Assembly (NCBI RefSeq): GCF_005281615.1
Contig: NZ_SZZM01000004.1
Location: 310,001 to 374,000, forward strand
Length of the DNA: 64,000 bases
From: Rhodoligotrophos defluvii
Lineage (GTDB): Bacteria > Pseudomonadota > Alphaproteobacteria > Rhizobiales > Im1
Direction: 5' to 3'
In this document: positions 17,495-32,274 of the stretch, piece by piece
How the letters are laid out: every line of letters starts with the position of its first letter
How positions within the stretch are numbered: position 1 is the stretch's first letter
Program-made: the position numbers and the translations under genes
The notes under the pieces: model-generated
Databases searched by the model: none
What the model saw: the letters and a program-made list of their open reading frames with translations, nothing else
Told to the model about the DNA's origin: nothing

Positions 17495-18673
17495 TCAGTA
17501 GACGTGCTCCTCGATCCGCCGGTTCTCGGCAATCCGTTCGAACGCGAACGGGGTGAGATCGATCGAGCGACAATCGCCGTAGGTAATCAGCTCGCTGACG
17601 CCTGCTCCGGCTGCAGGCGAGTGCATCATGCCGTGGCCGCTGAATCCGGTGGCGAGGATGAGGTTCGTCACCTCGGGGTGGCGCCCGATGACGGCACTGT
17701 GGTCGAAAGTGTTGTACTCGTACAGGCCCGCCCACGCCCGCAACAGTCTAAGCTGCTCGAAACCGGGCACGCGGTGGGCGAGCGCCGGCCAGATGAGTTC
17801 GTCGAATAGATCGTAGTCCACATCGAGCCCGAAATCGTCCGGCGCGTTGTCGCGCGGAGGCGTGATCCCGCAGATATAGAGATGGCCCTCGGGCCGGACG
17901 ACGGTGCCGCTCGTGTCGAAGATGAACGGACAGCTCGCAATCTCGGCCGGGGTCTCGAACACGAAGATGCAGCGCTTTCTGGGCACCACGGGCAGGTCGA
18001 TGCCTGCCATCCGCGCGATGCCGCCGCTCCAGGCGCCGGCTGCATTCACGACGATCCCGGTCGCGAGCCGGCCTCCACTGGCCAGTTGAACCGCGCCGAT
18101 ATGGCCCGGAGCCGCCATGTCCAGCCCGACAACCGTATCCGCGATGTATTCCACGCCTTGCGCCCGCGCCTTCCGCCTGAACGCCTGCAGCAGGGCAGGG
18201 CCGTCGAACCAGCCTTCCTTTTCCGGACCATATGAGCCTATGCCGAGATCCTCCGTATTCAGCCAGGGGTAGCGCTGGCCGAGTTCTGCCGGGCTGAGCA
18301 GTTCGGCATCGAAGCCGCACGCTTTCTGCACCGCGTTCCGGCTCTCGAAGATGGCGACATCTTCTTTTCCGCCCAGGATCAGGTATCCGGGCTCTCTCAG
18401 GCCGATATCCGCCTCATAGCCGTCCACGCTGAGGCGCTCCTTGACCTGGCGCAGAAACGCGATGCTGTAGGCGGACATCTCGATATTGGGTCTTGTTCCG
18501 AACTGCTGCCGGATCGCGCTTGTGGACAGCGACGACGACGAGGCCGTGTAATAGGGATCGCGCTCCACCACAGCCACCTTGCCGCCGAAATCCGCATTGG
18601 CGGACAGGAAATACGCGACCGCGCTGCCAATGACCCCCCCACCGACAATCACGACGTCATAGGCTGGCTGCAT
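17495..18673 (-). CDS. FAD-dependent oxidoreductase, DadA/sarcosine oxidase beta-like
   Basis: 392 residues from the ATG at 18673 (MQPAYDVVIVGGG); an earlier ATG would add 25 residues of no family resemblance. FAD motif VVIVGGGVIGSAVAYFL at about residues 7-23, then TSASSSSL-like flavin loop (YTASSSSLSTSAIRQQF), and the DAO-family C-terminus NLILATGFSGHGMMHSPAAG. The overall pattern is that of sarcosine/dimethylglycine oxidase beta subunits and FOXRED1-like proteins. It would oxidise an N-methyl or secondary amino acid. It stands alone between minC and the phosphopantetheinyl transferase gene. Confidence 0.87.
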   Translation of the reverse strand: MQPAYDVVIVGGGVIGSAVAYFLSANADFGGKVAVVERDPYYTASSSSLSTSAIRQQFGTRPNIEMSAYSIAFLRQVKERLSVDGYEADIGLREPGYLILGGKEDVAIFESRNAVQKACGFDAELLSPAELGQRYPWLNTEDLGIGSYGPEKEGWFDGPALLQAFRRKARAQGVEYIADTVVGLDMAAPGHIGAVQLASGGRLATGIVVNAAGAWSGGIARMAGIDLPVVPRKRCIFVFETPAEIASCPFIFDTSGTVVRPEGHLYICGITPPRDNAPDDFGLDVDYDLFDELIWPALAHRVPGFEQLRLLRAWAGLYEYNTFDHSAVIGRHPEVTNLILATGFSGHGMMHSPAAGAGVSELITYGDCRSIDLTPFAFERIAENRRIEEHVY

Positions 18674-18790
18674 GGTGAATTCCACGTCACAGGACTGAAG
18701 GCCAAGCATCCGATCCATTGCCTGGCGAGGATGCATCGCCTCAGACATACGGAGTGCGGAATGAAGTGTCCAGCCGGTACTCTGGGCGGG

Positions 18791-19492
18791 TCAGAGAAGG
18801 GGAACGAACCAGCCGGGCCGGTGCAGCGACACGCGAATGTCCGGGTTCTCGCACACCAGCGCGGCAATGTGATCCAACGAAGGTTGGTATTCGTGCCATG
18901 CGAGCCGCGCGCAGCCCTGGGGGCCGGAGACCTGCAGCGTGCGGTCCGCACAGGGGCTGCAATCGATCTGATCCAGGGCGTCCACGAGGCCGGTGCCGAG
19001 CATTTTCAGGAAGGCCTCCTTCCGGGTCCAGGCACGGAAGAATGCCAGCAGCCTCTCGTTTCCCGCCGACGCGTCGATGAGTGCCCGCTCCCTGGTGCTG
19101 AAACAGCGCCCGATCATGCTGTCGAGATCAGCAACGTCCCGCACCCGCTCGACATCGATGCCGACCGACCCCGCTCGGGAAAGGGCGAGAACGACATGGC
19201 CGCCCGAATGCGACACGCTGAAGCTCAGCTGGGGCATGTCCGGCAATACCGGCTTTCCCCCATCGGTCGTGTGCAGATGAATGTCTCCCGGAGCCCGATC
19301 GAGATATCGCCCGAGAAGCTGTCTCAGCATGGCGCGGCCGATGACGAACCGCGCCCGATCCTCGGCCCGGCGAAAGCGCTCGGCTCTCGCCTGCTCGTCA
19401 TCGGTCAGCAAGCCGAGCAGCGGCTCAACACCAATGCAAGTGGTCTCGAACTGCCAGAGATGCGCGTCGCGCCCGTCCAGCCTCGAGGTCAT
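18791..19492 (-). CDS. 4'-phosphopantetheinyl transferase, Sfp type
   Basis: 233 residues from an ATG overlapping the upstream ABC ATPase stop (ATGA). Motifs in order: SVSHSGG (about 92-98), the magnesium site GIDVE (111-115) and WTRKEAFLK (155-163), with a C-terminal lobe to residue 233, so it is the two-lobe Sfp/Gsp class used for polyketide and peptide synthases rather than AcpS. It moves the 4'-phosphopantetheine arm of CoA onto the serine of carrier proteins. Being the last gene of the operon with the giant synthase, its natural target is almost certainly the ACP at residue S2120 of that synthase. Confidence 0.93.
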   Translation of the reverse strand: MTSRLDGRDAHLWQFETTCIGVEPLLGLLTDDEQARAERFRRAEDRARFVIGRAMLRQLLGRYLDRAPGDIHLHTTDGGKPVLPDMPQLSFSVSHSGGHVVLALSRAGSVGIDVERVRDVADLDSMIGRCFSTRERALIDASAGNERLLAFFRAWTRKEAFLKMLGTGLVDALDQIDCSPCADRTLQVSGPQGCARLAWHEYQPSLDHIAALVCENPDIRVSLHRPGWFVPLL

Positions 19493-20259
19493 CGGAGGCT
19501 TCTCAATGGCGGTTGCGGCGGCAGAGGGATGTCGCGCGCATACCCACCGCGGGGATAGATCCAGGCATCGATCCGTCCGTCGCTCATCTCGACCACCCGA
19601 TCGAACAGGTCGATCCAGCGCGGGTCGTGGGTGATGACGCAGACCGCCACGCCGCGGTGGTCGGCAAGCTCCCGGAACTGTCGCATGACGTGACGGCCGA
19701 GATGGCCGTCCAGCGCGGCGGTCGGCTCGTCCGCAAGAAGCAGGACGGGGTCGTTGGCAAGCGCGCGGGCGATGGAGACCCGCTGCTGCTCGCCGCCGGA
19801 GAGCTGCGAGGGGTAGTTGTCGCATCGGTGGCCAATCCCGAGCTGATCGAGCAGCTCCACGGCCTCGCGCCGGGAGTTGCGCGAGCGCGCGCTGATCTCT
19901 AGGGCCACCTGCACGTTTTCCGCCGCCGTCAGAAAGGGAATGAGATTGGCCTTCTGGAAGACATAGCCGAAATGCGAGCGGCGAAACTCCCGCAACGTGT
20001 TGGGCTTTGTCCCGGGATCAGCGATCACCTGGCCGGCGAACAGAACCTCGCCGCGCGTGGGCGGCTCCAGAAGCCCCGCGATCATCAGGAACGTCGTCTT
20101 GCCCGAGCCGCTCGGCCCCATGATGCCCGTAAGCTCGCCCGCGCGCAGATCGAGGCTGAGGTCCGCCAATGCAATGACTTCCTGGTCCCCGCTCTTGTAA
20201 ATCTTCTGCGCGCCGCGAACCTCGATCACCGTCTCGCCGGGCTGAAAGCTCGTCGTCAT
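19489..20259 (-). CDS. ABC exporter ATPase, DevA/LolD-like
   Basis: 256 residues from the ATG at 20259, which overlaps the permease stop by 4 nt. Walker [10 protein letters not shown] at about 48-56, Q-loop in [12 protein letters not shown], signature LSGGEQQR, Walker [15 protein letters not shown]-loop CVITHD. Sequence type is that of MacB/LolD/DevA ATPases, which power mechanotransmission permeases of FtsX type. It energises the DevC-like permease encoded upstream. Likely role: moving the lipid-like product of the adjacent polyketide synthase through the envelope. Confidence 0.92.
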
Positions 20260-21401
20260 GACAGCACCTCCTGCGCCCTCACCACGAGCGCGCGGCGGAT
20301 GGCGAACCAGCTGGCAACCAGTGTGATGGCCAGGAGCACGGCGCCGATGCCGGCAAGGTCGGGCACCTCGAGGAGCACGGTTCTCGGAAAGTGCGGATAT
20401 ACGGTGACCGACAGCGCGATGGCCAGAGCAAAGCCGGCGCCGGCGATGATCATCGCCTGCTGAACGATCATTCCAACGATCGTTCGGTCTCTGGCGCCGA
20501 TCAGTTTCAGCAGCGCGATATGCGGAATTTTTTCCAGCGTCATGGTGTAGATGGTGAGGGCCACCACGCTGCCGGACACGAGCAGCGTCATCGCCGTGAA
20601 GGCCAGGATTTGGACCCGCAGCCGCCACAGCCGCCCGTCCAGCAGCAGCGACTGCTGGTCCGCCCGGGTGAGCACCGAGACGTCACCCCACCGCTCGATC
20701 CGCTCCTTTATGGATTCCGGGTCGATGCCGGGGCGAGCCTCCACGATGACCGCACCGATGCTGCCGGCCTGGCTGTAGCCGGTGCGGTTCAAGGCGGATG
20801 CGACGCGGTTCAGCAAAATCGCCTCGCTCGGCAGCACCCGGTTGATGGCTTGCGCATCCGGTATGGTGACGAAAAACATGCCGTCGCCCGCCATGTCCAC
20901 CTGGCCGACCGAAATGCCGACCACGGTGTAGTCGTCGCGGCCAAGGCGAATCACATCGCCCATCTGCAGGCCGGTGGACTGGTCGGCGATGGCCTCGTAG
21001 CGGCTGGAGTAGAAATACCGGCCGGCGATCAGCGGAATCCAGCTACCGGTGTCCTTGGGGAAATCGATGCCGGTGACGGCAAGCCGCAGGGGCTTCCCGT
21101 TGAACGAATATTGCTGATTGTACTGGATGAACCGGCGCACGGACTTGACCCCCGGAACCCCTTCCACGCGGCGATCCAGCGTTGCCGAGACGGCCGATGT
21201 CTCCGCGAAAGGACCGCCGCGGCCGCCTTCCACCACCCACAGGTCGGCGCCGATATCGTTGATGATCAGGAGCGCCTCATAGACGATGCCGCGATAGAGG
21301 CCGATCATGCCCATGGTGGCGCCGAGCAGCATGCCGACGCCGAGCGCCGTCAGGATGAAGCGCACAGGGCTGAACCGCAGGTCTTTCGCCGCAAGGTTCA
21401 C
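20256..21401 (-). CDS. ABC exporter permease, DevC/FtsX-like
   Basis: 381 residues from a GTG overlapping the HlyD gene stop (GTGA). One N-terminal membrane segment (ILTALGVGMLLGATMGMIGL), a large periplasmic domain of about 230 residues, then three C-terminal segments (around ILAFTAMTLLVSGSVVALTIY, IVQQAMIIAGAGFALAIAL and IGAVLLAITLVASWF): the topology of MacB/DevC mechanotransmission permeases. The closest functional model is DevC of cyanobacterial DevBCA, which exports heterocyst glycolipids. Coupled translation with the HlyD and ATPase genes supports one complex. Confidence 0.9.
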   Translation of the reverse strand: MNLAAKDLRFSPVRFILTALGVGMLLGATMGMIGLYRGIVYEALLIINDIGADLWVVEGGRGGPFAETSAVSATLDRRVEGVPGVKSVRRFIQYNQQYSFNGKPLRLAVTGIDFPKDTGSWIPLIAGRYFYSSRYEAIADQSTGLQMGDVIRLGRDDYTVVGISVGQVDMAGDGMFFVTIPDAQAINRVLPSEAILLNRVASALNRTGYSQAGSIGAVIVEARPGIDPESIKERIERWGDVSVLTRADQQSLLLDGRLWRLRVQILAFTAMTLLVSGSVVALTIYTMTLEKIPHIALLKLIGARDRTIVGMIVQQAMIIAGAGFALAIALSVTVYPHFPRTVLLEVPDLAGIGAVLLAITLVASWFAIRRALVVRAQEVLS

Positions 21402-22633
21402 TGCGTCTTCCTGCTCGGTGAAACAGGCTCGTAAGGATACCGGCCTTCGGGATCGAGCACGGCATCGCCTTCACTGAGGCCGTGGGTGATCTGCACGTCC
21501 GTTCCGCTGAGATAGCCGAGCGTGACCGGCGTCCAGACGGCGCGCCCGTCTCGGTCGACCCACACCCCGGCGCGGTTGTCCCGCCGCGTGATGTAATTTT
21601 GCGGGACGGCGATGGCTGTCGTGGTCGATGCGCCGAGGACGGTGACATGGGTGCGCTGGCCCATGGCCCAATTCCGGGGCAGTTCCTTCAGGGTTATATC
21701 GACGGTGAACTCCCGGGTCTCTTGGTCGACTTGGCGGCTGAGGCGCAACACCTTGCCCTCGAAAGTGCGGCCTGGCTCCGACGCGAAGGTCACCCGGGCA
21801 TCCTGACCAGGCTTTATGCCGCCCATGGCGGATTCGTCGAAGCGCGCGGAAACGATGATCGTGGCCGGGTCGACGATCTGCATCAGCGCGGCGCCGGGCA
21901 TCAGCAGGTCGCCCACATTGCGCTCCCGAAACACGACGACCCCGTTTAGGGGCGAGCGGATGGTGGCTTCCGCCAGCCGTGCCTCCAGCACCTTCACATT
22001 GGCGGCGGCCGCAGCGGCCTCCGCCTGCGCTCGCTGCACGCTGGTCCCGGCCCGGACCAGATCCGCCTCGGCCTCCTTGTAGGCCGCCTCGACCACGGAA
22101 AATTCCGCTTCCGACACCGTTTTGGATTTCAGCAGCGGCAGCCGCCGGTCGTAGTCGCGTTTCGCCTTGTCGAAGGAGATGCTCGCCCGGTCCCGCGTGC
22201 TCTCCGCCTCCGCCACCGCCCGCAGCGTCGATTCCGCCGTGGCCTTGGCCGCCGCCAGCTCGTTCTCGAGATCGGTGGATTCGAGCGTCGCCAGCACCTG
22301 GCCTGTGGTGACCCTGTCGTTGCGGTCGGCATTGATCGCCGTGAGAAAGCCTTGAATCCGGGCGGTGATCGTCACCCGGTTGATCGCATCGAGAAGCCCG
22401 GGGCCGGTCATCTCCAGGCCCATCATGCGCTGATGCACCACATGGGCATCAACCGAGGTTGGAACGAGGTACCAGCCGGCGAGCAGCCCTGTCCCGGAGC
22501 AGGCCACCAGCAGCATGGCTGCGACGCGGAAGAACCCCTTCGGCAGGCGTTCCCTGTATGAACGCGGCTCGATGCGCGCCCGCCCGCTGAGCCTGTCCTG
22601 CGCCGGGCGGAAGTGTTCTGGTGGTTTCAGCAC
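21398..22633 (-). CDS. Membrane fusion protein, HlyD family, DevB-like
   Basis: 411 residues from a GTG 3 nt after the synthase stop. A single N-terminal membrane anchor (AAMLLVACSGTGLLAGWYL, about residues 37-55), a biotinyl-lipoyl-like half (GFLTAINADRNDRVTTGQVLATLES), a long alpha-helical coiled-coil hairpin rich in Ala, Glu and Arg (about 115-225), the second lipoyl half (SPLNGVVVFRERNVGDLL), then beta-barrel. It would bridge the DevC-like permease to an outer membrane TolC-type channel, which is not encoded in the window. DevB of cyanobacteria is the functional model. Confidence 0.9.
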   Translation of the reverse strand: MLKPPEHFRPAQDRLSGRARIEPRSYRERLPKGFFRVAAMLLVACSGTGLLAGWYLVPTSVDAHVVHQRMMGLEMTGPGLLDAINRVTITARIQGFLTAINADRNDRVTTGQVLATLESTDLENELAAAKATAESTLRAVAEAESTRDRASISFDKAKRDYDRRLPLLKSKTVSEAEFSVVEAAYKEAEADLVRAGTSVQRAQAEAAAAAANVKVLEARLAEATIRSPLNGVVVFRERNVGDLLMPGAALMQIVDPATIIVSARFDESAMGGIKPGQDARVTFASEPGRTFEGKVLRLSRQVDQETREFTVDITLKELPRNWAMGQRTHVTVLGASTTTAIAVPQNYITRRDNRAGVWVDRDGRAVWTPVTLGYLSGTDVQITHGLSEGDAVLDPEGRYPYEPVSPSRKTQ

Positions 22634-22636
22634 CGC

Positions 22637-25600
22637 TCAGCTCGTCTCGCTCGTTGCGACGATCGGCCCAATCGCATCTCCTTCCAGGCCCATTCGATCG
22701 AGGATCTCGGCAAAGATCGCGGAGGCTTCGGCCTGCGTGAAGGATAGCCGGTCATAGCCGAAACGATAGCTCAGTCCATCCGCGCCTTGGAAGCTTCTGA
22801 TGTCCACCTCGTACATCGTGTGGGAGCGGATGTGCGCCGGTCCCACATTCGAGACCTTCACGATGCCGAAGTCGATCTCGCCCGTGCCGCCAAGCCGTTG
22901 CAGCGGCGAACTGGAGGCGCCCTTTGCCCACCGCTCCACCGTCTGCATGCCGGCATTGTACCGGGCCATATAGGAGCCGCCGGCGATGATCTCGTCGCCA
23001 AGCGTGCCACCCAGCATGCCCAGGAACGACATGTGCTCGAGCGAGCGATCGAGCTGTGTCCTCATCTCGGCGGCCAGCTGATCCGTCGAGGGTGTGGTGC
23101 GCACGGCGGCCCGCACCAGGGCAAGATCCGCCGCGAAGCCGACGAAGTTTGCCATCCGCCGGTCCGTGCGCATCGCAATGGGCACCGACATCATGATCTC
23201 GTCTACGCCACCCTTCCTGGCCAAGACCTGGGCGGCGGCCGCGATCAGCAAGCTGCTTTCGGTGATGCCAGCGGCACGCACGCGATCCTGCAGCCGCTGC
23301 TGGCCAAACGGCGTGGTCACGGCGACGAGCTCGCCGGCCTCGCCGCTGCGGATGTGATCCACATTGGCGGGGAGCCCTCGCGCCGTGCGGCCCAGATGGG
23401 GCAAAGGCGGCATCGGCGCCGCATAGAGCTGGCGCAGATAGGCTTCCGCGGCTCGCCGGCCTTCCGGCATGGAGGCCGGATCATAGAGCGGTATCGCTGC
23501 TTCCGTACCCAGCTCGACGGGCGGCAGGACCATGCCCACGAACGCCGCGATCATCTCCTCGACGATGAGGCCGAGCGACCAGCCGTCCACCACCGTATGA
23601 TGGGCCGCGATATGGATGATGTCGCTATCCCGCCGGCGCAAGACCATCAGCTGAAACAGCGGGTCTCGGAACGGATCGATGATCCTCTCGCCGAGGGCGT
23701 AAAGGCGCGCATCGAGTGCCGCCTCATCCGCATCGCTGAGATCCTCGACCACGATCGGAATGCGCGGTGCCGTATCGATTAACGCTCGGAAGCGGTCGCC
23801 ATCGACTTCGAAGCGGGTTCTCAGAGACTCATGGCGCCCGACGACCGTGTCGTAAGCACGGCCGAGGCGCGCTATGTCGATTCGCGGCCGCACGCGAATG
23901 GCTCGCCCGAGACACCAGAATGAAGCATATGACGTGCTGATGTCGGGCTTGAGCAGTGTGCGCAGCAGCCACGCCTGTTTCGAGGACACGCGGACCTCGC
24001 GCGCTCCGGCGCGCATCGCGGATCTCTCGCCGGCGGTCTTGGCTTGCACCGGCACAGGCTCCGACTGAAGGCGACTCGGCCGCTGCGGCACCGTCCAGTG
24101 GACGGGCTCGGCGGCAGGTCCGGCTTGCTCGGCGCCCCGCAATGCCGCCAGCTCATCGACCATCCGGCCAAGCAGCACCTCTGCGAAGGCCCGGTCCACC
24201 ACGTCGAGATCGACCGTGAGGGCGAGATGGTGGCCGCCCTCGACCGGCACCACGTCCAGCCGGATTTCATTGGACGGCTCGCTGAGCTGATCGAGAAGCG
24301 CGTCCACCCTATCGCTTCCCCGGTCATGGCGATGGAGCATGGCAAAGCCGATCTGCCGCAGATGGATGTTGCCCGCGCGCAGTTTGCTTTCCAGCGCCGC
24401 TTCTATGTCAGCGGTATCAAAGCGCCTGTGGCTCAGCCCCAGCTTCAACGCATGTGAGATCCTGCGCAGAACGTCGCCAGGCTGGTCCGGCAGGTTGTGC
24501 ACCACCACCGGAAAGCTGTCGGCCACGGGTCCGACGACACCGGGCGGCAGGCCGCGGCGCGCAGGGTCATGCCGTTCGACGAGCACGGATTCCGTGCCCG
24601 TGGCATGGGCAAGGCTGCGCACGAAAGCGGACAGGAATATTGCTTCCTCCTCGTGCCCGTTCACCGCCGCGCCTGCGGGATGCTTGACCAGAACGGTTGC
24701 CCGGCCGGCTGGACCTCGGTTCATGCCGAGGCCGGCTGGCGCTGCCGCCCGCCCACGATGGGGCATGGTCAAAAGCTGCGGCGCATCGTCGAGGATTGCC
24801 GACCAGAAGGAGAGGTGCCGTATTGTCTCGGGGCTGCCCTCGCCCGACCGGCTCATGGTCGCGTAATGGACGAAGCCGGGCCCCTCCGCTGCCGCATGAC
24901 CCTGCACCATGTCGGCAATCGCCTGCAGGGCCAGCATGGGGGAGATCGCATCCGCCACCGCTCGCTGCGCCTTGGCCACGAGTGTGTTTCGGCAATCCCC
25001 ATCGGTGCACAGACCGAAGCGCCACAGCGCCCCTTCCTGGCCCGGCGCTTCGAGACCCTCCGGGCTGGCCACAATCTCCAAGGCAGGCGGTGCAGCAAGC
25101 TCGATGCTGAGCCGGCCGTCCAGCTGCCGCTTGCCCACGAGCCGCAAGGCATCCTGCTGCCTGGCAAGCTCGGACAAAGCCGCCGCCACCGCGGCCGTTT
25201 CCACCGTCGCGTCCAGCGCAAGCTCCGACACGCGGATTTCCGCCGCCGCGAGGGGGGAGGTCATCGGCAGACCGGGCCTGTTGAGCTCCGCGAGCTGCCG
25301 CGCCAGGGGCTGGAAGGCCGCCTCATCGGCCACGATCTCCCCACCTTCCGCGCAAGCGCGCGCTTCCGCTGCGGCACGAGTGGCCAGCACCGCCTCGAAC
25401 GCATTCGCCACCACCACCGACAGCCCCGCGACCGTGGGCGTCTGCAGGAATTTGGCCACGGGAATGTTGATGTCGATCTGCGCCTCGATCCGGTTCTTGA
25501 GCTCGAACGACGAGAGACTGTCGAGGCCAAGCTCGCTGAGCTTCCGGTCGGCAGGAATCTCCGCCGGCTTGACCTTCAACACCTTGGCCACTTCCGTGCG

Positions 25601-28600
25601 GATGAGATCGGCCAGCATGCCCTCCCATCCGCTGCGGGGCGCGGTGACCAGTTCCGCCTGGAACCGCGAATTGCCCGCGGCACGGCGCGCAAACAGCAGC
25701 TTCAAGCGCGGGTTGGCGGGCGCGCCAGCCACCGTGCGTGCAACCTTCGCCCAGTCGACGGCTGCGTAGGCCACGTTCTCCCGAGCGTTCCGCAGCGCAT
25801 AGGCCAGGGATTGCGCCGCCTGGTCATGCGGCACCAGCCTGATGCCCGTGCTTTCAAGATAGTTGGTCAGCGCCTCAGAGCGCGAGACGAAGCCGCTGCC
25901 GCCGATGGCGCCCCAGGCGATGGACACGCCGGGCAAGCCGCGGCTGCGCTGGAAGGTGGCAATGGCATTGAGCACCGAATTGGCCGCGGTGTAATTGCCC
26001 TGACCGGACGAGCCGATCACCTGCGCGATGGAGGAGAAGCTCGCGAAGAAATCCAGCGAAAGACCTTCGGCCAGCACGGCGCGGTGGAGGTTCCAGGCAC
26101 CGGCCACTTTGGGGCGGATCACGCGCTCGATCTGGCCGCGGTCCAGCTGCGGCAGGAAGCCATCCTCGATCACCGCGGCGCCATGGATGATGCCGCGCAG
26201 CGGCCGGTTCCCGCGCGCATATTCGGCGACAACGGCATGCACCGCCGCGGGGTCGGCAACGTCGAGCGCCAGGGGCACCACCTCGGTGCCGCGCGCCCGG
26301 ATCGCCTCGATGACGGGCTGGGCCTCGGCATCGACCTCACCCTTGCGGCCGGCCAGCAGCAGGCGCCCGGCGCCTTGCCGGCTCATCCAATCGGCAACCG
26401 ATACGCCGAAGCCGCGCAGGCCGCCGGTGACGAGATAGCTGGCATGGGGCGACAGTCGGAAGGGCCTTGCGAGATCCAGGTCCACATCGATCCGCGGCTC
26501 GTCGAAGGTGATGACGACCTTGCCGATATGCTGCCCCTTGGCCAGCAGGCCCAGGGCCTCCGCGGCGCGGGAAGCCGGGAAGACCGTGGACGGAATAGGC
26601 CTGTAGGCGCCACTCATGATCTTGTCGGAGATCTCGTCGAGCAGCTTGCGCAGGAGGTCCGGCCGTTCGCCGCTCAGGGTCGAGAGGTCGATGACGGAAT
26701 AGGAGTTGTTGTAATAGAGTGACTTGAGCCCCACGGGCTTGTCCTGGGCGAGGTCGCGCTTGCCGATCTCGACGAAGCGGCCAAAGGGCGCCAGGCATTC
26801 CAGTCCCTTGTCGATGCCAGCGCCGGAGAGCGCGTTCAGCACCACGTCCACACCGCGGCCATGGGTGGCCTCCCGAACCTCGCCGGCGAATTCGAGGGCT
26901 CGGGAATTCATGACATGCGTGATGTTGAGATCGCGCAGATAGGCGCGCTTCTGGTCGCTTCCGGCGGTGGCCAGGATTTCCGCGCCGATGTTGCGGGCCA
27001 CCTGGATCGCCGCGAGCCCCACCCCGCCGGTGGCGAGGTGGATGAGCACGCGCTCGCCCTGCCGCAGCCGGCCGATCCAATCCAGCGCGTAATGGGCCGT
27101 CATGAATCCCACAGGCATCGTGGCAGCGGAAACGAGGTCCACGTCTTCCGGCACCGGCATGAGCGCTGCCGCGGGCACGATGGCGTAGCGCCGCATCAGG
27201 CCCTTGCCCATGCCCATCACCCGGGTGCCGACCGCAAGCCCTTCAACGCCTGCGCCCACCGCGTGCACCGTTCCGGCGAATTCGAGGCCGAGGTTGCGCC
27301 ACCAGGCGTCCTCGCCCTCGAGCTCATCGGGCAGGATGCTGGTCGCCGCCATCACGTCGCGGAAATTGAGCCCGACGGCGGCAACGGCCACCACCACTTC
27401 GCCCGGCTTCGGCTCGGGCGTCGCAGCCTCGCGCACGACGACATTATCGATCACCCCCGGCGCCGACATGGTGACCATGTAGTTCGACGGGTCTTGCCGT
27501 GTGTCTATGGTCCGCCTGGCCGGGGTCAGGGCTTGAGGTTCGCGCCGCTCAACCCGACCGACAAAGGCCTGTCCGCCGCGCAGCACGATCTCGATCTCCG
27601 GGCCGGACCCAAGGATGATGCCGGCGAGATCGGGGCTCGCCAGCGCTTGCGTATCCACATCGATCTGCCGAACGTCGAATTCCGGGCATTCATTGGCAAC
27701 CGTTCTGGTCAGGCCGACGAGAGCGCTGCTGACCACGCCGGCAATCGGCATAGGCCCGTCCACGGGGACGCGCTGGGCGTGCCTGGTGAGCACCACGACC
27801 CGGGGCCGGTGTGACGCCGAGCGCAGCCGGTCGAGTGCCTGGCCCAAGGTGACCAGCGCGGTGGTTACCGTCTCGACCGCGCCCACCACTCCCGATGTAT
27901 CGGTCGTTTCGCCGATGTCATCGGTGGGAACGGCTCCGGCGGCGAAAATGATGCCGGCCAGCGGCCGATCCTCTTCGCTCTTCTGCTCGATCAACGCGGC
28001 GACGCTGGCGAGGTCCATGGCCTGGAACCGGTCGATCCCGACCTTCTCGACAATGGCGCCGAGATCGGTAAGCCCGCCAACAAGGGGAACGAGATCGGAA
28101 TGCTCATCCGCAACCAGCAGCCAGCGCTTCGGCGCCCCCGGCTGCAGGGGGCTGGTCAACCGGCCCAGCCCGCCCTCGGCCGGCTCGAAGATCTCTTCGA
28201 GGAACCCGGCCTCGGAGCCAGCCGTGCCGCCCGCATGCTGTGAGCTGCCCAAGGCCTTGGTGGTGAAGCCCTCGATCGTCAGATAGGGCGTTCCGTCCAT
28301 CCCATAGACCCGGTAGTCACCGGCAAAATCCTTGCGAAATGCCGTGAAGGTGGTGACGATTTCCGACGGCAACCGGTCGGCCACCAGGATCTTGCGGGCG
28401 CCGATCGGCAGCTTCAGCTTGTAGCGATGCTCGTTGCCGGCGACGTCCTCCAGGGGCTTGCCCGGCTCCCAAATCCCGGCGTCCATGTCGTCGATGGCGA
28501 TGCCGGACTGCAGAACGCTGTCGAGCAGGCCGGGGAACGCGACGAACCCGGTGGCGGGCACGTTCTCGCCGACCGCCATTCGGCACATGGCCGTGTCTTC

Positions 28601-31600
28601 GTCCGCAATCCACAGCTTGTCGATATTGCGGAAGGTGGGGCCGTAATCCAGGCCGTGGCGGCTGGTCAGCTCATAGAAGTCGGTGCGCGAGATCGCCGGC
28701 TCTTGCCACAGCAGCCCGAGATCCAGCGGGCGAGGCCGAAGCTTGAAGTCATGGCGCCAGCCATAGGCCTCCGACCGCAGCCGCCAGCCGTCGTCGCTGT
28801 CCCGCTGCAGACTGTAGATGCGGATGCGGCTGGTGGCCGGATCGATGCTGGTGCGCAGCAGCACCGTGTCATCTGCGCCGAGCGACAGCGCCTCCAGGAA
28901 GCGGATGTCGCGGATTTCCACCGGCCCCGGCCCGTGCAGCTCGCGCAGGGCCGCCACCATCATCTCCACATAGGCCACCGCCGGCACCAGGCAGTCGCCG
29001 CTGACGCGGTGATCGCCGAAATATTTGTGGCTCTTGAGGCTGATCTCGTTGGACCAGGCGGGCTCGGGTCCGGCTTCCCGCTGCCCGAGCAGCGGATGGG
29101 CACTGCCGGCAAACAGAATCTGACGCGCCTCGAGCGGCAGATAGTCGAAGCGCTCCTTGGCCCAAGGGTAGGCCGGGAAGGGCTTGCCCTCCTCGCCCTG
29201 CTGCGGGGCAAGCACCGACCAGTTCATGGGCACGCCCACCACATGCAAATTGGCCGCGGCCTTGCTCATGGTCATGAAATCATCGTCGCCGCGCATGAGC
29301 GAGCCGACGGCCGCAACGCTCTTGCCCCGCTCCTGGGAAATGCCGCGGATGAGCGGCGTCAGGGTGTGGTGCGGCCCGATTTCGAGGAAGGTGTCAATGC
29401 CGAGGTCGAGGCAGAAGTCGATGGCCTTCTTGAAGGCGACCGGCTCGCGAAGATTGCGCCACCAATAATCCAGGTCGAACTTGCTGTGCAGCCGGCCGGT
29501 CACCGTCGAGACCACCGGATGGGAGGGCGCCTGCCACTCGATGCTGCCCACAGCCGCGCGGAACGCTGCCTCGCAATCGTCGAGGTGCTCGCTGTGCCAG
29601 CCGAAATCCATGGTCAGCCTGCGCGCCAGCGCGTCGGGATAGAGGCGGTTAACCTCCTTCAGCACCGCGATGACGCTTGGCTCCATGCCGGAGATGGTCT
29701 GCGCGGTTGGTCCGTTGAAGGCGGCGATCACAGCCGATCCATCCGCCGGCAGCAGCGGTTCGAGCTGCTCCAGGGTGAGGCCGATGACGGCCATCGCGCC
29801 GCGCCGCTCGCTATTGTGGGGAATCTGGCCGCGCGCATGGATGATGCGCGCCGCCGTCTCCATGGAGATGGCCCCGGTGATATAGGAGGTCGCCACCTCG
29901 CCGAAGCTGTGGCCAATGAACAGCTCCGGCACCAGCCCACGGGCCATCCACAAGTCGGCCAGGGCGATCTGATTGGCAAAGATCGAGGCCTGCGTCACAT
30001 CCGCATCATTGATGCGCGTCTTGTCCTCGTCGCGCAGCATCTCCTCGATCACCGACCAGCCGGCAATCGGACGCAGCACCGCGTCAAAGGCCTCGACCGT
30101 CTGCCGATAGCGCGGCTCCTTCTCTAGGAGGTCGCGGCTCATGGCCCACCATTGTCCGCCCTGGCCGGAGAAGGCGAAGGCCAGGCGCCGGGTGGTCTTG
30201 GCTTGTCCGGTGATGATCGCCGTGCTGGCGGAAGAGGCGGTGCTGATGGCATCGCCTCCGCGTGACAAGGCCAGCAAGCCGTCCCTCATCTGGCTCTTGT
30301 CGTCCTGGTTGATGAGCACGGCGCGCTCGGCCAGATGATCCCGATGGCGCGCCAGGTGGCCGGCCATCGCGCCAACCGGCCACTCGGCCAGCACCCCGTT
30401 GTCGACCGACCGGGCAAGCTCGTTGGCCCATGCGGAGAGCATTGGTTTCGATGCCGCGGACACCGGCACCATCAGCGGCCAGGGACTTGCCGGCTTTGCC
30501 GCCGCCGTCACGTGCAGCATGGCCTGCCGGGCCGCATCGCCCCAGCTTTCGATCATGACCGAGGCGTTGGTGCCGCCGAACCCGAAGGAGTTGATGGCGG
30601 CCAGTCGCTTCCCGTGTGCCTCCGGGAAGGGCAGCGCCTCCTGCGGCACGCGAATGCCCAGCGCATCGAAGGGGATCTGCGGGTTGGGCTTTTCGAAATT
30701 GCGGTTGGGGAGGACGATGCCGTTGCGGACCGACAGAAGCACCTTGATCAGGCTGGCAATGCCTGAGGCGGATTCCAGATGGCCGAGATTGGGCTTCACC
30801 GACCCCACGAAAATCGGATCATCGATCCGCTCCCGGCCGAAAACCTTGCCGATCGAATGGGCTTCGATCGGATCGCCTACCGGCGTGCCCGTGCCATGGG
30901 CCTCGATATAGCCCACGTCTCGTGGATCCGTCCCGGACCGTTCGACCAGGTCAAAGAGCATGGCGGTCTGGGCGGCCTGGCTTGGCGCCGTCAGGGTGGG
31001 CGTGCGGCCGTCCTGGTTCACGCTTGACCCGCGGATGACGCCATAGATACGGTCCTGGTCGGCCAGAGCGCGCGCCAGCGGCTTCAGCAGCACCATGCCG
31101 CAGCCTTCGCCGCGCACGAAGCCATTGGCCCGCGCATCGAAGGTGTAGATCTCGCCGGTCAGCGACAGCATGTTCGCCTTGGTGAAGGCAATGAACACAC
31201 CGGGATCGAGCATGCAGTTCACGCCGCCGGCGAGCGCCAGGTCGCAGGTGCCCATGCTCAGGTGCCGGACGGCCTGGTCGACCGCCACGAGCGCGGAGGA
31301 GCAGGCCGTGTCGACGGCCATGCTCGGCCCGGTCAGGTCGAAGCGGTGGGAGATGCGGTTGGCGGCGATGGACATGGCCGCGCCGGTGCCGGCAAAAATG
31401 TCGGAGTGGTTGCGCCGGTATTTCTGGCTGTAGCCGAAGTCGGTCGTCGAGATGCCGACGAACACGCCGGTGCGTAGCCGCTGCGCATCGCGTATGGTGG
31501 TCCCGCCATCCTGCAGAGCCTCATAGGCAACCTGCAGCAGCAACCGCTGCTGGGGATCCATGGCCGCGGTCTCGCGTGGCGACAGGTCGAAAAATGTCGG

Positions 31601-31876
31601 GTCGAAACTGAAGACGTCGTCGAGAAAACCGCCCCAACGGGAACGGGTTTTTCCGATCGCATCAGGATTTTCATCGTAAAACGCATCGATGTTCCAGCGA
31701 TCGCGCGGGATTTCGACAACACCAGTTCTTTTTTCAAGTAAAAAGGGCCAGTAGTTGTCCGCGTTGTTCACTGATCCAGGAAACCGGCAGCCAACGCCAA
31801 TTACAGCAACTGGAACAGTCCTCCCCTCGATTTCAGAACGCGAAATCTGATGATCGAGCTGGTCGATCTTGTTCAT
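22637..31876 (-). CDS. Single-module fully reducing type I polyketide synthase with two C-terminal condensation-type domains
   Basis: 3079 residues from the ATG at 31876 (GGGGTGG upstream; a GTG at 31885 would add three). Domains, approximate residues: KS 19-445 (C192 in DTACSS, H327 in EAHGTG, H366 in NLGH); AT 566-850 (S657 in GHSFGE; specificity segment FGWH, unlike the HAFH of malonyl or YASH of methylmalonyl types); DH 926-1210 (HxxxGxxxxP with H956, D1119 in DxxxQ); pseudo-KR 1247-1447; ER 1473-1792 (TGGVGLAAIQVA); KR 1812-2057 (TGGLRGFG, S1948/S1949, Y1962); ACP 2085-2165 (S2120 in GLDS); a degenerate condensation-like domain 2195-2585 without HHxxxDG; an intact condensation domain 2627-3067 (AHHTVVDGWS, H2759/H2760, D2764). 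All reducing activities are present, so a saturated chain is expected, with possible iterative use. No thioesterase or methyltransferase is seen. LovB-like fungal synthases also end in a condensation domain. Exporter and phosphopantetheinyl transferase genes follow. Product unknown. Confidence 0.93.
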   Translation of the reverse strand: MNKIDQLDHQISRSEIEGRTVPVAVIGVGCRFPGSVNNADNYWPFLLEKRTGVVEIPRDRWNIDAFYDENPDAIGKTRSRWGGFLDDVFSFDPTFFDLSPRETAAMDPQQRLLLQVAYEALQDGGTTIRDAQRLRTGVFVGISTTDFGYSQKYRRNHSDIFAGTGAAMSIAANRISHRFDLTGPSMAVDTACSSALVAVDQAVRHLSMGTCDLALAGGVNCMLDPGVFIAFTKANMLSLTGEIYTFDARANGFVRGEGCGMVLLKPLARALADQDRIYGVIRGSSVNQDGRTPTLTAPSQAAQTAMLFDLVERSGTDPRDVGYIEAHGTGTPVGDPIEAHSIGKVFGRERIDDPIFVGSVKPNLGHLESASGIASLIKVLLSVRNGIVLPNRNFEKPNPQIPFDALGIRVPQEALPFPEAHGKRLAAINSFGFGGTNASVMIESWGDAARQAMLHVTAAAKPASPWPLMVPVSAASKPMLSAWANELARSVDNGVLAEWPVGAMAGHLARHRDHLAERAVLINQDDKSQMRDGLLALSRGGDAISTASSASTAIITGQAKTTRRLAFAFSGQGGQWWAMSRDLLEKEPRYRQTVEAFDAVLRPIAGWSVIEEMLRDEDKTRINDADVTQASIFANQIALADLWMARGLVPELFIGHSFGEVATSYITGAISMETAARIIHARGQIPHNSERRGAMAVIGLTLEQLEPLLPADGSAVIAAFNGPTAQTISGMEPSVIAVLKEVNRLYPDALARRLTMDFGWHSEHLDDCEAAFRAAVGSIEWQAPSHPVVSTVTGRLHSKFDLDYWWRNLREPVAFKKAIDFCLDLGIDTFLEIGPHHTLTPLIRGISQERGKSVAAVGSLMRGDDDFMTMSKAAANLHVVGVPMNWSVLAPQQGEEGKPFPAYPWAKERFDYLPLEARQILFAGSAHPLLGQREAGPEPAWSNEISLKSHKYFGDHRVSGDCLVPAVAYVEMMVAALRELHGPGPVEIRDIRFLEALSLGADDTVLLRTSIDPATSRIRIYSLQRDSDDGWRLRSEAYGWRHDFKLRPRPLDLGLLWQEPAISRTDFYELTSRHGLDYGPTFRNIDKLWIADEDTAMCRMAVGENVPATGFVAFPGLLDSVLQSGIAIDDMDAGIWEPGKPLEDVAGNEHRYKLKLPIGARKILVADRLPSEIVTTFTAFRKDFAGDYRVYGMDGTPYLTIEGFTTKALGSSQHAGGTAGSEAGFLEEIFEPAEGGLGRLTSPLQPGAPKRWLLVADEHSDLVPLVGGLTDLGAIVEKVGIDRFQAMDLASVAALIEQKSEEDRPLAGIIFAAGAVPTDDIGETTDTSGVVGAVETVTTALVTLGQALDRLRSASHRPRVVVLTRHAQRVPVDGPMPIAGVVSSALVGLTRTVANECPEFDVRQIDVDTQALASPDLAGIILGSGPEIEIVLRGGQAFVGRVERREPQALTPARRTIDTRQDPSNYMVTMSAPGVIDNVVVREAATPEPKPGEVVVAVAAVGLNFRDVMAATSILPDELEGEDAWWRNLGLEFAGTVHAVGAGVEGLAVGTRVMGMGKGLMRRYAIVPAAALMPVPEDVDLVSAATMPVGFMTAHYALDWIGRLRQGERVLIHLATGGVGLAAIQVARNIGAEILATAGSDQKRAYLRDLNITHVMNSRALEFAGEVREATHGRGVDVVLNALSGAGIDKGLECLAPFGRFVEIGKRDLAQDKPVGLKSLYYNNSYSVIDLSTLSGERPDLLRKLLDEISDKIMSGAYRPIPSTVFPASRAAEALGLLAKGQHIGKVVITFDEPRIDVDLDLARPFRLSPHASYLVTGGLRGFGVSVADWMSRQGAGRLLLAGRKGEVDAEAQPVIEAIRARGTEVVPLALDVADPAAVHAVVAEYARGNRPLRGIIHGAAVIEDGFLPQLDRGQIERVIRPKVAGAWNLHRAVLAEGLSLDFFASFSSIAQVIGSSGQGNYTAANSVLNAIATFQRSRGLPGVSIAWGAIGGSGFVSRSEALTNYLESTGIRLVPHDQAAQSLAYALRNARENVAYAAVDWAKVARTVAGAPANPRLKLLFARRAAGNSRFQAELVTAPRSGWEGMLADLIRTEVAKVLKVKPAEIPADRKLSELGLDSLSSFELKNRIEAQIDINIPVAKFLQTPTVAGLSVVVANAFEAVLATRAAAEARACAEGGEIVADEAAFQPLARQLAELNRPGLPMTSPLAAAEIRVSELALDATVETAAVAAALSELARQQDALRLVGKRQLDGRLSIELAAPPALEIVASPEGLEAPGQEGALWRFGLCTDGDCRNTLVAKAQRAVADAISPMLALQAIADMVQGHAAAEGPGFVHYATMSRSGEGSPETIRHLSFWSAILDDAPQLLTMPHRGRAAAPAGLGMNRGPAGRATVLVKHPAGAAVNGHEEEAIFLSAFVRSLAHATGTESVLVERHDPARRGLPPGVVGPVADSFPVVVHNLPDQPGDVLRRISHALKLGLSHRRFDTADIEAALESKLRAGNIHLRQIGFAMLHRHDRGSDRVDALLDQLSEPSNEIRLDVVPVEGGHHLALTVDLDVVDRAFAEVLLGRMVDELAALRGAEQAGPAAEPVHWTVPQRPSRLQSEPVPVQAKTAGERSAMRAGAREVRVSSKQAWLLRTLLKPDISTSYASFWCLGRAIRVRPRIDIARLGRAYDTVVGRHESLRTRFEVDGDRFRALIDTAPRIPIVVEDLSDADEAALDARLYALGERIIDPFRDPLFQLMVLRRRDSDIIHIAAHHTVVDGWSLGLIVEEMIAAFVGMVLPPVELGTEAAIPLYDPASMPEGRRAAEAYLRQLYAAPMPPLPHLGRTARGLPANVDHIRSGEAGELVAVTTPFGQQRLQDRVRAAGITESSLLIAAAAQVLARKGGVDEIMMSVPIAMRTDRRMANFVGFAADLALVRAAVRTTPSTDQLAAEMRTQLDRSLEHMSFLGMLGGTLGDEIIAGGSYMARYNAGMQTVERWAKGASSSPLQRLGGTGEIDFGIVKVSNVGPAHIRSHTMYEVDIRSFQGADGLSYRFGYDRLSFTQAEASAIFAEILDRMGLEGDAIGPIVATSETS

Positions 31877-32274
31877 CGGAGCCACCCCGCTCTTTTACTT
31901 ACCCCTCTTACTCGACCATATCGCACTCCTACGGTACGCGCGAATCGATTCCTCTGTACCGGCATCATCTGAATACGAAAGGAAAATAAGAACGGCCAAG
32001 GCCGTCGCTCAAGCTAAGCAGTACCGGTCTGCCGAGGTGCCGGTTCGTGCACTGAGCGAGGCGGCTCCGATCTTCCGCGAGAATGATTGCAGCGCGACGA
32101 CGCCGCGGGATTGCGCACCGCGCCCGCGGCTTGCTTCGGCCACCGTGCTCCTAATCGGGCCGACAGTTTCGCTTTGCGCGATCGATCTCCTCGGCCATGC
32201 TGTAGTATTCACACGGACGGGCGGCGGGGAGCCGACGCGGCCTGCGCTCCACCCATGCCAAAGGGGAAGCTGCT
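31877..32274. other. Intergenic region: divergent promoters of the polyketide operon and the Ldh-family gene
   Basis: Nearly 400 nt without a credible gene; the short frames here lack ribosome sites and family resemblance. It must hold the leftward promoter of the synthase operon and the rightward one of the dehydrogenase (AGGGGAAG precedes that ATG). Visible structures are CGGTAC (31932-31937) with GTACCG (31956-31961), and a short palindrome ACGGCC-AA-GGCCGT near 31992-32005. No consensus -35/-10 pair stood out. Confidence 0.5.

Follow-up and report, generated by a model that had tools for sequence, protein, structure and literature searches.

Gene content of the locus

The window, that is, the whole stretch of 64,000 nucleotides of Rhodoligotrophos defluvii contig NZ_SZZM01000004.1 that was analysed, contains five consecutive genes, all on the minus strand and spanning positions 31876 to 18791, which the list of open reading frames (ORFs) and Pfam identify as a type I polyketide synthase (PKS), an HlyD adaptor, a permease, an ATPase and a phosphopantetheinyl transferase (PPTase). 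The synthase carries ketosynthase (KS), acyltransferase (AT), dehydratase (DH), enoyl reductase (ER), ketoreductase (KR) and acyl carrier protein (ACP) domains, followed by two condensation-type (C) domains, here named C1 and C2 (Table 1). Judged from sequence, the synthase and pump genes of related bacteria suggest that such units make and ship a lipid-like product.

The original prediction of five co-directional genes of these types at this place is confirmed by the ORF, Pfam and start analysis. Specifically, the synthase runs from the ATG at 31876 to the stop at 22637 and measures 3079 residues; an alternative GTG start upstream, at 31885, would give 3082 residues, and the alignment with the synthase of the congener G002 begins at the ATG residue. 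The listed ORFs of the ATPase (379 residues) and of the PPTase (344 residues) were over-extended and were trimmed to 256 and 233 residues, respectively. The junctions across the five genes consist of one 3-base gap followed by three 4-base overlaps, which suggests translational coupling, and the G+C content of the unit resembles that of its flanks. Pfam was run on 38 window ORFs, out of 128 listed at ≥150 residues, many of which are overlapping frames; among these 38, no thioesterase or glycosyltransferase gene was found, in agreement with what had been predicted.

Table 1. Genes of the five-gene unit and domains of its synthase, with window positions
Feature	Position	Strand	Basis
Type I polyketide synthase, KS-AT-DH-ER-KR-ACP-C1-C2, 3079 aa	22637..31876	-	ORF, Pfam, MAS best solved relative
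HlyD/MacA-type membrane fusion protein, 411 aa	21398..22633	-	Pfam; RND_mfp 174 bits, cut-off 95
MacB/FtsX-type ABC permease, 381 aa, 4 hydrophobic segments	20256..21401	-	Pfam MacB_PCD + FtsX; hydropathy
ABC exporter ATPase, DevA/MacB/LolD group, 256 aa	19489..20259	-	Pfam, NCBIfam
Sfp-type 4'-phosphopantetheinyl transferase, 233 aa	18791..19492	-	Pfam ACPS 65.3 bits, cut-off 25
KS domain (DTACSS, EAHGTGT, NLGHLE)	30536..31816	-	Pfam, motifs
AT domain (GHSFGE, FGWHS)	29216..30193	-	Pfam, motifs
DH domain (HRVSGDCLVP, DSVLQ)	28241..29104	-	Pfam, motifs
ER domain	26501..27448	-	Pfam ADH_N + ADH_zinc_N
KR domain	25886..26452	-	Pfam KR 194.8 bits
ACP domain (GLDSL)	25391..25633	-	Pfam, motif
C1 condensation-type domain, HHxxxDG replaced (QRAVADA)	24026..25318	-	Pfam score, profile, alignments
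C2 condensation domain, HHTVVDG (23602-23582), proposed chain-release acyltransferase	22676..23968	-	Pfam, motif, profile

Conservation of the synthase-exporter unit

The synthase, HlyD, FtsX and ATPase genes occur in identical order and orientation in 11 loci, namely the window and 10 relatives (the congener G002, the genome G052, Xanthobacter and Mesorhizobium-type loci), and because 10 relatives keep the same order, the four-gene arrangement is more than chance. KS, C2, HlyD, FtsX and ATPase retain their order and orientation in 11/11 of these window-type loci, and the relatives' synthases are 48-71% identical to that of the window over the aligned parts. A permease-based scan of named genomes returned 51 loci, 10 of which (from Xanthobacter, Mesorhizobium and one Hyphomicrobiales metagenome-assembled genome, MAG) show a permease identity of ≥65%; a PKS adjoins the permease in eight of these 10, and the contigs of the other two end too soon. 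These eight, the window, G002 and G052, the last two located through the synthase tail, make up the 11 window-type loci. A long C1-C2-type match together with this exporter is present in at least three of the 397 genomes sampled from the order (G000, which is the window's own, G002 and G052), a lower bound since few candidates were scored per genome; in the congener G001, neither the C1-C2 tail nor the permease found a match.

The PPTase gene is the mobile component. It follows the ATPase gene in the window and in G002, precedes the synthase gene in three Mesorhizobium-type loci and in G052, and adjoins the synthase in 6/11 window-type loci overall; it also follows the ATPase gene on a Xanthobacter MAG contig (L050). 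Two genes of the ACPS family were counted in G000, two in G002 and one in G001, the genome without tail and permease matches, and in Xanthobacter G397 a second one lies on a contig with other PKSs. As its position moves among downstream, upstream and distant sites, the PPTase was rejected as a fixed operon member. The idea of a dedicated five-gene unit with a conserved order holds in that a synthase-exporter-PPTase unit recurs in other genomes, but the invariant part comprises four genes.

The synthase and its condensation-type tail

The KS, AT, DH, ER, KR and ACP domains and one condensation domain of the synthase pass their Pfam cut-offs, and no adenylation or methyltransferase domain was found in it by Pfam. 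The predicted layout of KS-AT-DH-ER-KR-ACP-C-C over 3079 residues is therefore upheld, except that the first C domain has a degenerate active site and lies below the cut-off in Pfam. The dehydratase family PF21089 has a single match in the whole 5.49-Mb genome, which is the window synthase. The best relative of solved structure is the mycobacterial mycocerosic acid synthase, MAS (942 bits, with an alignment covering positions 2-1100 and 1313-2110), the next one scores 705 and LovB scores 548 bits, and the KS-AT-DH-ER-KR-ACP order of the MAS/Pks2 lipid synthases is present. Among the NCBIfam models, Pks2 leads for the whole synthase with 1159.9 bits over model positions 2-2069 of 2086, below its equivalog cut-off of 2400 bits. 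KS-only scores are 510 bits for PKS_plus_SDR, 488 for Pks13, 421 for Pks2 and 230 for PfaA. By these scores the synthase is MAS/Pks2-like rather than like the synthases of polyunsaturated fatty acids (PUFA), the PUFA side being represented by the PfaA model score, with no HglE sequence compared. Whether an AT domain is of the methylmalonyl type is judged by the HAFHS and YASHS motif rules, neither of which fits the GHSFGE and FGWHS motifs of the window synthase; FGWHS is found in 11/11 window-type synthases.

C1 alone scores 20.3 bits against the Pfam Condensation family, whose cut-off is 30.6; since an 11-row C1 profile matches condensation domains of non-ribosomal peptide synthetases (NRPS), e.g., PvdL, at 2e-14, it is assigned by sequence as a C-type domain with a degenerate active site. 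The window reads AQRAVADA at this site, 6/10 other rows of alignment A3 read AHRAAAD, and an arginine at the place of the catalytic histidine is invariant across the 9 rows of alignment A4; C1 is probably non-catalytic. C2 carries HHTVVDG at residue 2762, and the HHxxxDG motif is intact in 10/11 window-type synthases, the Xanthobacter oligotrophicus protein having YHTVFDG.

The C2 profile matches NRPS C domains (Txo2) at 1.9e-22, LovB at 1.2e-12 and the dimycocerosyl transferase 8s6l at 5.4e-5. This closer proximity to NRPS condensation domains than to PapA5 is one argument for a rival explanation, in which the product would be a small secreted metabolite (a lipo-amide, a signal or an antimicrobial) and the MacB-like pump would serve efflux and self-protection, not the export of an envelope lipid. 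Such a product appears rather unlikely: the window synthase has no detectable adenylation domain, no tailoring enzyme belonging to the unit is among the neighbours scanned, and the family model that scores best over the whole length is that of a lipid synthase.

The exporter

The adaptor-permease-ATPase gene order of DevBCA is shared by the window and its 10 relatives, and on this resemblance the exporter had been called DevBCA-like. Scored against the curated DevBCA models (TIGR02982, TIGR01185 and TIGR02971), the ATPase reaches 205.2 bits for DevA (cut-off 295.8), the permease 43.2 bits for DevC (cut-off 290.35) and the adaptor 35 bits for DevB (cut-off 129). As all three scores lie below the curated cut-offs, membership was rejected, and from its sequence the exporter is DevBCA-like in gene order but not a member of the family; in addition, exporters of the same family often occur without a PKS. 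A heterocyst-glycolipid-like system, i.e., DevBCA and an HglE-type synthase acquired by alphaproteobacteria and giving rise to a glycolipid layer, would account for the HlyD-FtsX-ATPase order and for the NCBIfam results, in which the PPTase scores best with HetI (133 bits, cut-off 370) and the ATPase with DevA. Nevertheless, it is very improbable, given that the DevA, DevB, DevC and HetI cut-offs are all missed, that the KS scores far less with PfaA than with PKS_plus_SDR, Pks13 or Pks2, and that the scanned ORFs include no recognisable glycosyltransferase.

The features of a MacAB-type exporter were found instead: an adaptor above the RND_mfp cut-off, a permease with MacB_PCD and FtsX domains, and an ABC ATPase, with the permease and the ATPase being separate proteins in the window. 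According to PMC5985334, MacB expels antibiotics together with MacA and TolC, which adds to the case for a secreted metabolite. One 503-residue frame elsewhere in the genome, unlinked to the unit and with two OEP matches, is a TolC-family candidate for a partner of the pump. The exporter was rejected as a marker of PKS genes, since the homologues inspected whose permease identity is less than 65% have no PKS beside them. In loci L052-L093 except L066 (Planctomycetes, Verrucomicrobia and others), the permeases are 33-59% identical to that of the window over the best segment, HlyD and ATPase genes mostly adjoin them, and there is no PKS match.

Phylogeny and the wider clade

In a tree of 41 FtsX permeases, for which 20 of the order-level loci and 10 of the 41 named loci of lower identity were used, the 11 PKS-linked permeases form one clade (100/100); next to it stand 14 permeases from the same order, taken from stretches without a PKS. 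PKS linkage requires one change on this tree, compared with a mean of 9.7 after shuffling, and 0/500 shuffles were as low, a result that near-copies favour. Likewise, the 11 window-type synthases form one clade at 100/100 in a KS tree of 29 rows, built from one KS per protein after dropping KS matches of ≤380 residues. A combined KS+AT+ER+KR tree was built with 20 and then 21 rows, proteins missing any of the four domains being dropped; in the 21-row version, the 11 synthases are joined by those of G027, Sulfitobacter, G925, G201, G290 and G494 in a 17-row clade, which a 100/100 split separates from Caballeronia, Thioclava, Deinococcus and G633, with weak inner branching among the groups. The trees were made without HglE, RkpA, PfaA, LovB or MAS rows. 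Nine stretches, G027 among them, were read from the matches of C1 profile searches, which hit 12/385 genomes of the class at 1e-8 and 13/398 of the phylum at 1e-15, the window's own included in both. From these matches G494 and G925 joined the clade and G633 became an outgroup, and G550, G649, G818, G173 and G888 were set aside as NRPS or hybrid genes by appearance.

These trees bear on a further rival, a WcbR/RkpA-type synthase making a capsule lipid anchor. The mono-modular core is the same, and the synthase of a Caballeronia locus with capsule-type neighbours (L164, labelled wcb-like here) is placed by the KS tree immediately outside the clade. The 100/100 split separates the 17 rows from it, no capsule genes occur among the flanking ORFs scanned, and neither adjacent capsule genes nor a placement of the synthase within that group was found, in trees holding one wcb-like row and no RkpA; this is the least probable of the explanations considered.

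Across the wider clade, an exporter adjoins 14/17 synthases in three different designs, and a PPTase-type gene adjoins 10/17; the latter count has to be read with the PPTase-like genes beside G201, G290 and G494 in mind, which were recognised by a custom profile (1e-18, 4e-16 and 2e-25) and lie below the Pfam cut-off. The G027 synthase ends after C1; genes for an ATPase, a 786-residue double-FtsX permease (25% identity to that of the window) and HlyD lie upstream of it, and an alpha/beta hydrolase and then a PPTase follow downstream. The Sulfitobacter synthase (L163) also ends after C1, is preceded by two free condensation proteins with HHxxxDG and is adjoined by a transporter of the MMPL type and by a LolA-like protein. 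In G925 (L201:3973-18753), the synthase gene is followed by genes for a free condensation protein and a sulfotransferase and for MMPL and LolA-like proteins that are 44% and 48% identical, respectively, to those of Sulfitobacter. MMPL and LolA-like proteins are typical of lipid traffic, and their use by two relatives is a point against the secreted metabolite. Lastly, in G494 a degenerate C1 and an intact C2 are followed by the PPTase-like gene, which in G201 and G290 comes directly after the synthase.

Other observations concern the same loci. An IS256 transposase lies between the two upstream condensation proteins of the Sulfitobacter dubius plasmid (L163:2699-24787), where a protein of the Mur ligase family is encoded too. 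The gene set of G925 is much like what a sulfolipid pathway needs. In the G201 and G290 synthases (L158 and L159), C2 aligns but the catalytic histidine is lost (FEGVADG and FELVADG), and chain release may for this reason be different. Outside the clade, a Deinococcus plasmid (L165:8089-17381) has in a row an annotated PPTase, a mono-modular PKS and a 288-residue condensation-type protein without HHxxxDG. In the outgroup G633 (L191:1001-12955), a reducing module of the same kind continues into condensation-adenylation-thiolation domains (C-A-T) in one fused protein, beside a PPTase; this PKS-NRPS hybrid may hint at the origin of the C domains and lends some weight to a secreted metabolite.

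Flanking genes

One flank of the unit holds an FAD oxidoreductase and MinC/MinD genes, and the opposite one holds malate/lactate dehydrogenase and arginase-family genes and then peptidase and amino-acid genes. The FAD-dependent oxidoreductase (17495-18748) is on the same strand, 42 bases downstream of the PPTase gene; it was rejected as a sixth gene and left out of the unit because no homologue was found among the selected ORFs of G002, G052 and G027 that were compared. The region 34411-61534 is rich in peptide and amino-acid genes, including M29 and M24 peptidases, the arginase family, gamma-glutamyltranspeptidase, hydantoinase/oxoprolinase, ABC uptake parts and a DctM transporter.

Proposed function

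The reading preferred here, to which a probability of about 0.55 is given, is that the five genes serve the synthesis and export of a single lipid-like product, through an iterative reducing synthase, release by C2 and a dedicated pump. The strongest argument lies in the wider clade: because this synthase lineage is repeatedly paired with different export machinery and the fused C2 is swapped for free condensation proteins, the product would be an exported acylated molecule, which by sequence may be an envelope lipid or a small secreted amide. As a first step, the Sfp-type PPTase would, by its family, activate the ACP. The synthase may then iterate as the mycobacterial MAS/Pks2 do, lengthening an acyl starter and reducing it by KR, DH and ER until a long and largely saturated chain results; the domains and their order are present, and iteration, reduction, starter and extender are deduced from them. 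In the third step, C2 would use its HHxxxDG motif to pass the ACP-bound chain to an acceptor with a hydroxyl or amine group, no thioesterase having been found, and the conserved C1 without catalytic histidine could serve as a docking or gating domain. Finally, HlyD, the MacB/FtsX permease and the ATPase would form a tripartite pump, an architecture predicted by homology, which together with the TolC-family protein of the genome could carry the product as far as the outer membrane or out of the cell, the substrate being suggested by linkage.

Several observations weigh against this reading. The unit is rare in the order sample (G000, G002 and G052 of 397, as a lower bound), PKS domains occur in 0/20 fetched order-level exporter stretches, and 0/41 lower-identity named loci match the PKS, several of their contigs being short. 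Moreover, 5/11 window-type loci, all from Xanthobacter, have no PPTase within the stretches read, G201, G290 and G494 have no exporter in theirs, and no fatty acyl-AMP ligase (FAAL) or acyl-CoA ligase was found within the unit.

A broader proposal, advanced tentatively and with doubt prevailing, is that of an alphaproteobacterial counterpart of the mycobacterial biosynthesis of phthiocerol dimycocerosate (PDIM) and sulfolipids, with a MAS-type lineage, acyl transfer by condensation domains and interchangeable exporters (tripartite MacAB-like, double-FtsX, and MMPL with LolA-like proteins); in Xanthobacter, Mesorhizobium, Sulfitobacter and their kin, these would give rise to surface lipids of a class so far unrecognised. 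If the reading preferred here is right, a compact four- or five-gene unit lets bacteria that can be cultivated, Xanthobacter for one, produce a polyketide lipid for export, which would offer a simple model for coupling chain synthesis, condensation-domain release and trans-envelope export, and would assign a substrate to one branch of the large MacB-like exporter family, most members of which were found here without a PKS.

Comparison with known systems

No published description of such a gene set was found among the open-licence PMC literature, judged by titles and the starts of abstracts, in line with the prediction of an undescribed product. The fungal highly reducing PKSs of the LovB type share a terminal condensation domain with the window synthase, and the C2 profile matches LovB; the window synthase differs from them in its better score with MAS, in having no methyltransferase domain detected and in carrying two C-type domains. 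The swf and wcb/rkp PKSs are likewise single-module KS-AT-DH-ER-KR-ACP proteins and, in PMC3908369, are expected to make acyl chains; there, the swf product is also given as unknown, SwfB carries a sulphotransferase domain, and SwfA has HATGT and an altered DPQQR, whereas the window synthase has HGTGT and DPQQR. Unlike those systems, the window shows no capsule or swfBC genes and adds C1-C2, the pump and the PPTase.

The DevBCA/Hgl system has in common with the window an adaptor, an FtsX-type permease and an ATPase in B-C-A order and a PKS-type lipid synthase. PMC8064123 describes devBCA as required for the export of heterocyst glycolipids and cites a TolC-dependent route. The window unit, in contrast, misses the Dev cut-offs, has a KS that is not PUFA-like, and unites synthase and exporter in one operon.

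PapA acyltransferases act in the mycobacterial PDIM and sulfolipid-1 systems. The MAS/Pks2 synthases of these systems have the same KS-AT-DH-ER-KR-ACP order, matched along most of the length, and a dedicated exporter is common to both, the relative G925 even having MMPL, LolA-like and sulfotransferase genes. In mycobacteria, PpsE and MmpL7 couple synthesis with export, as reported in PMC1238737. Compared with MAS/Pks2, the window synthase remains below the Pks2 cut-off, has the AT motifs GHSFGE and FGWHS and is encoded in a unit where no FAAL was found, its release domains are fused as C1-C2, and a tripartite ABC pump takes the place of MmpL.

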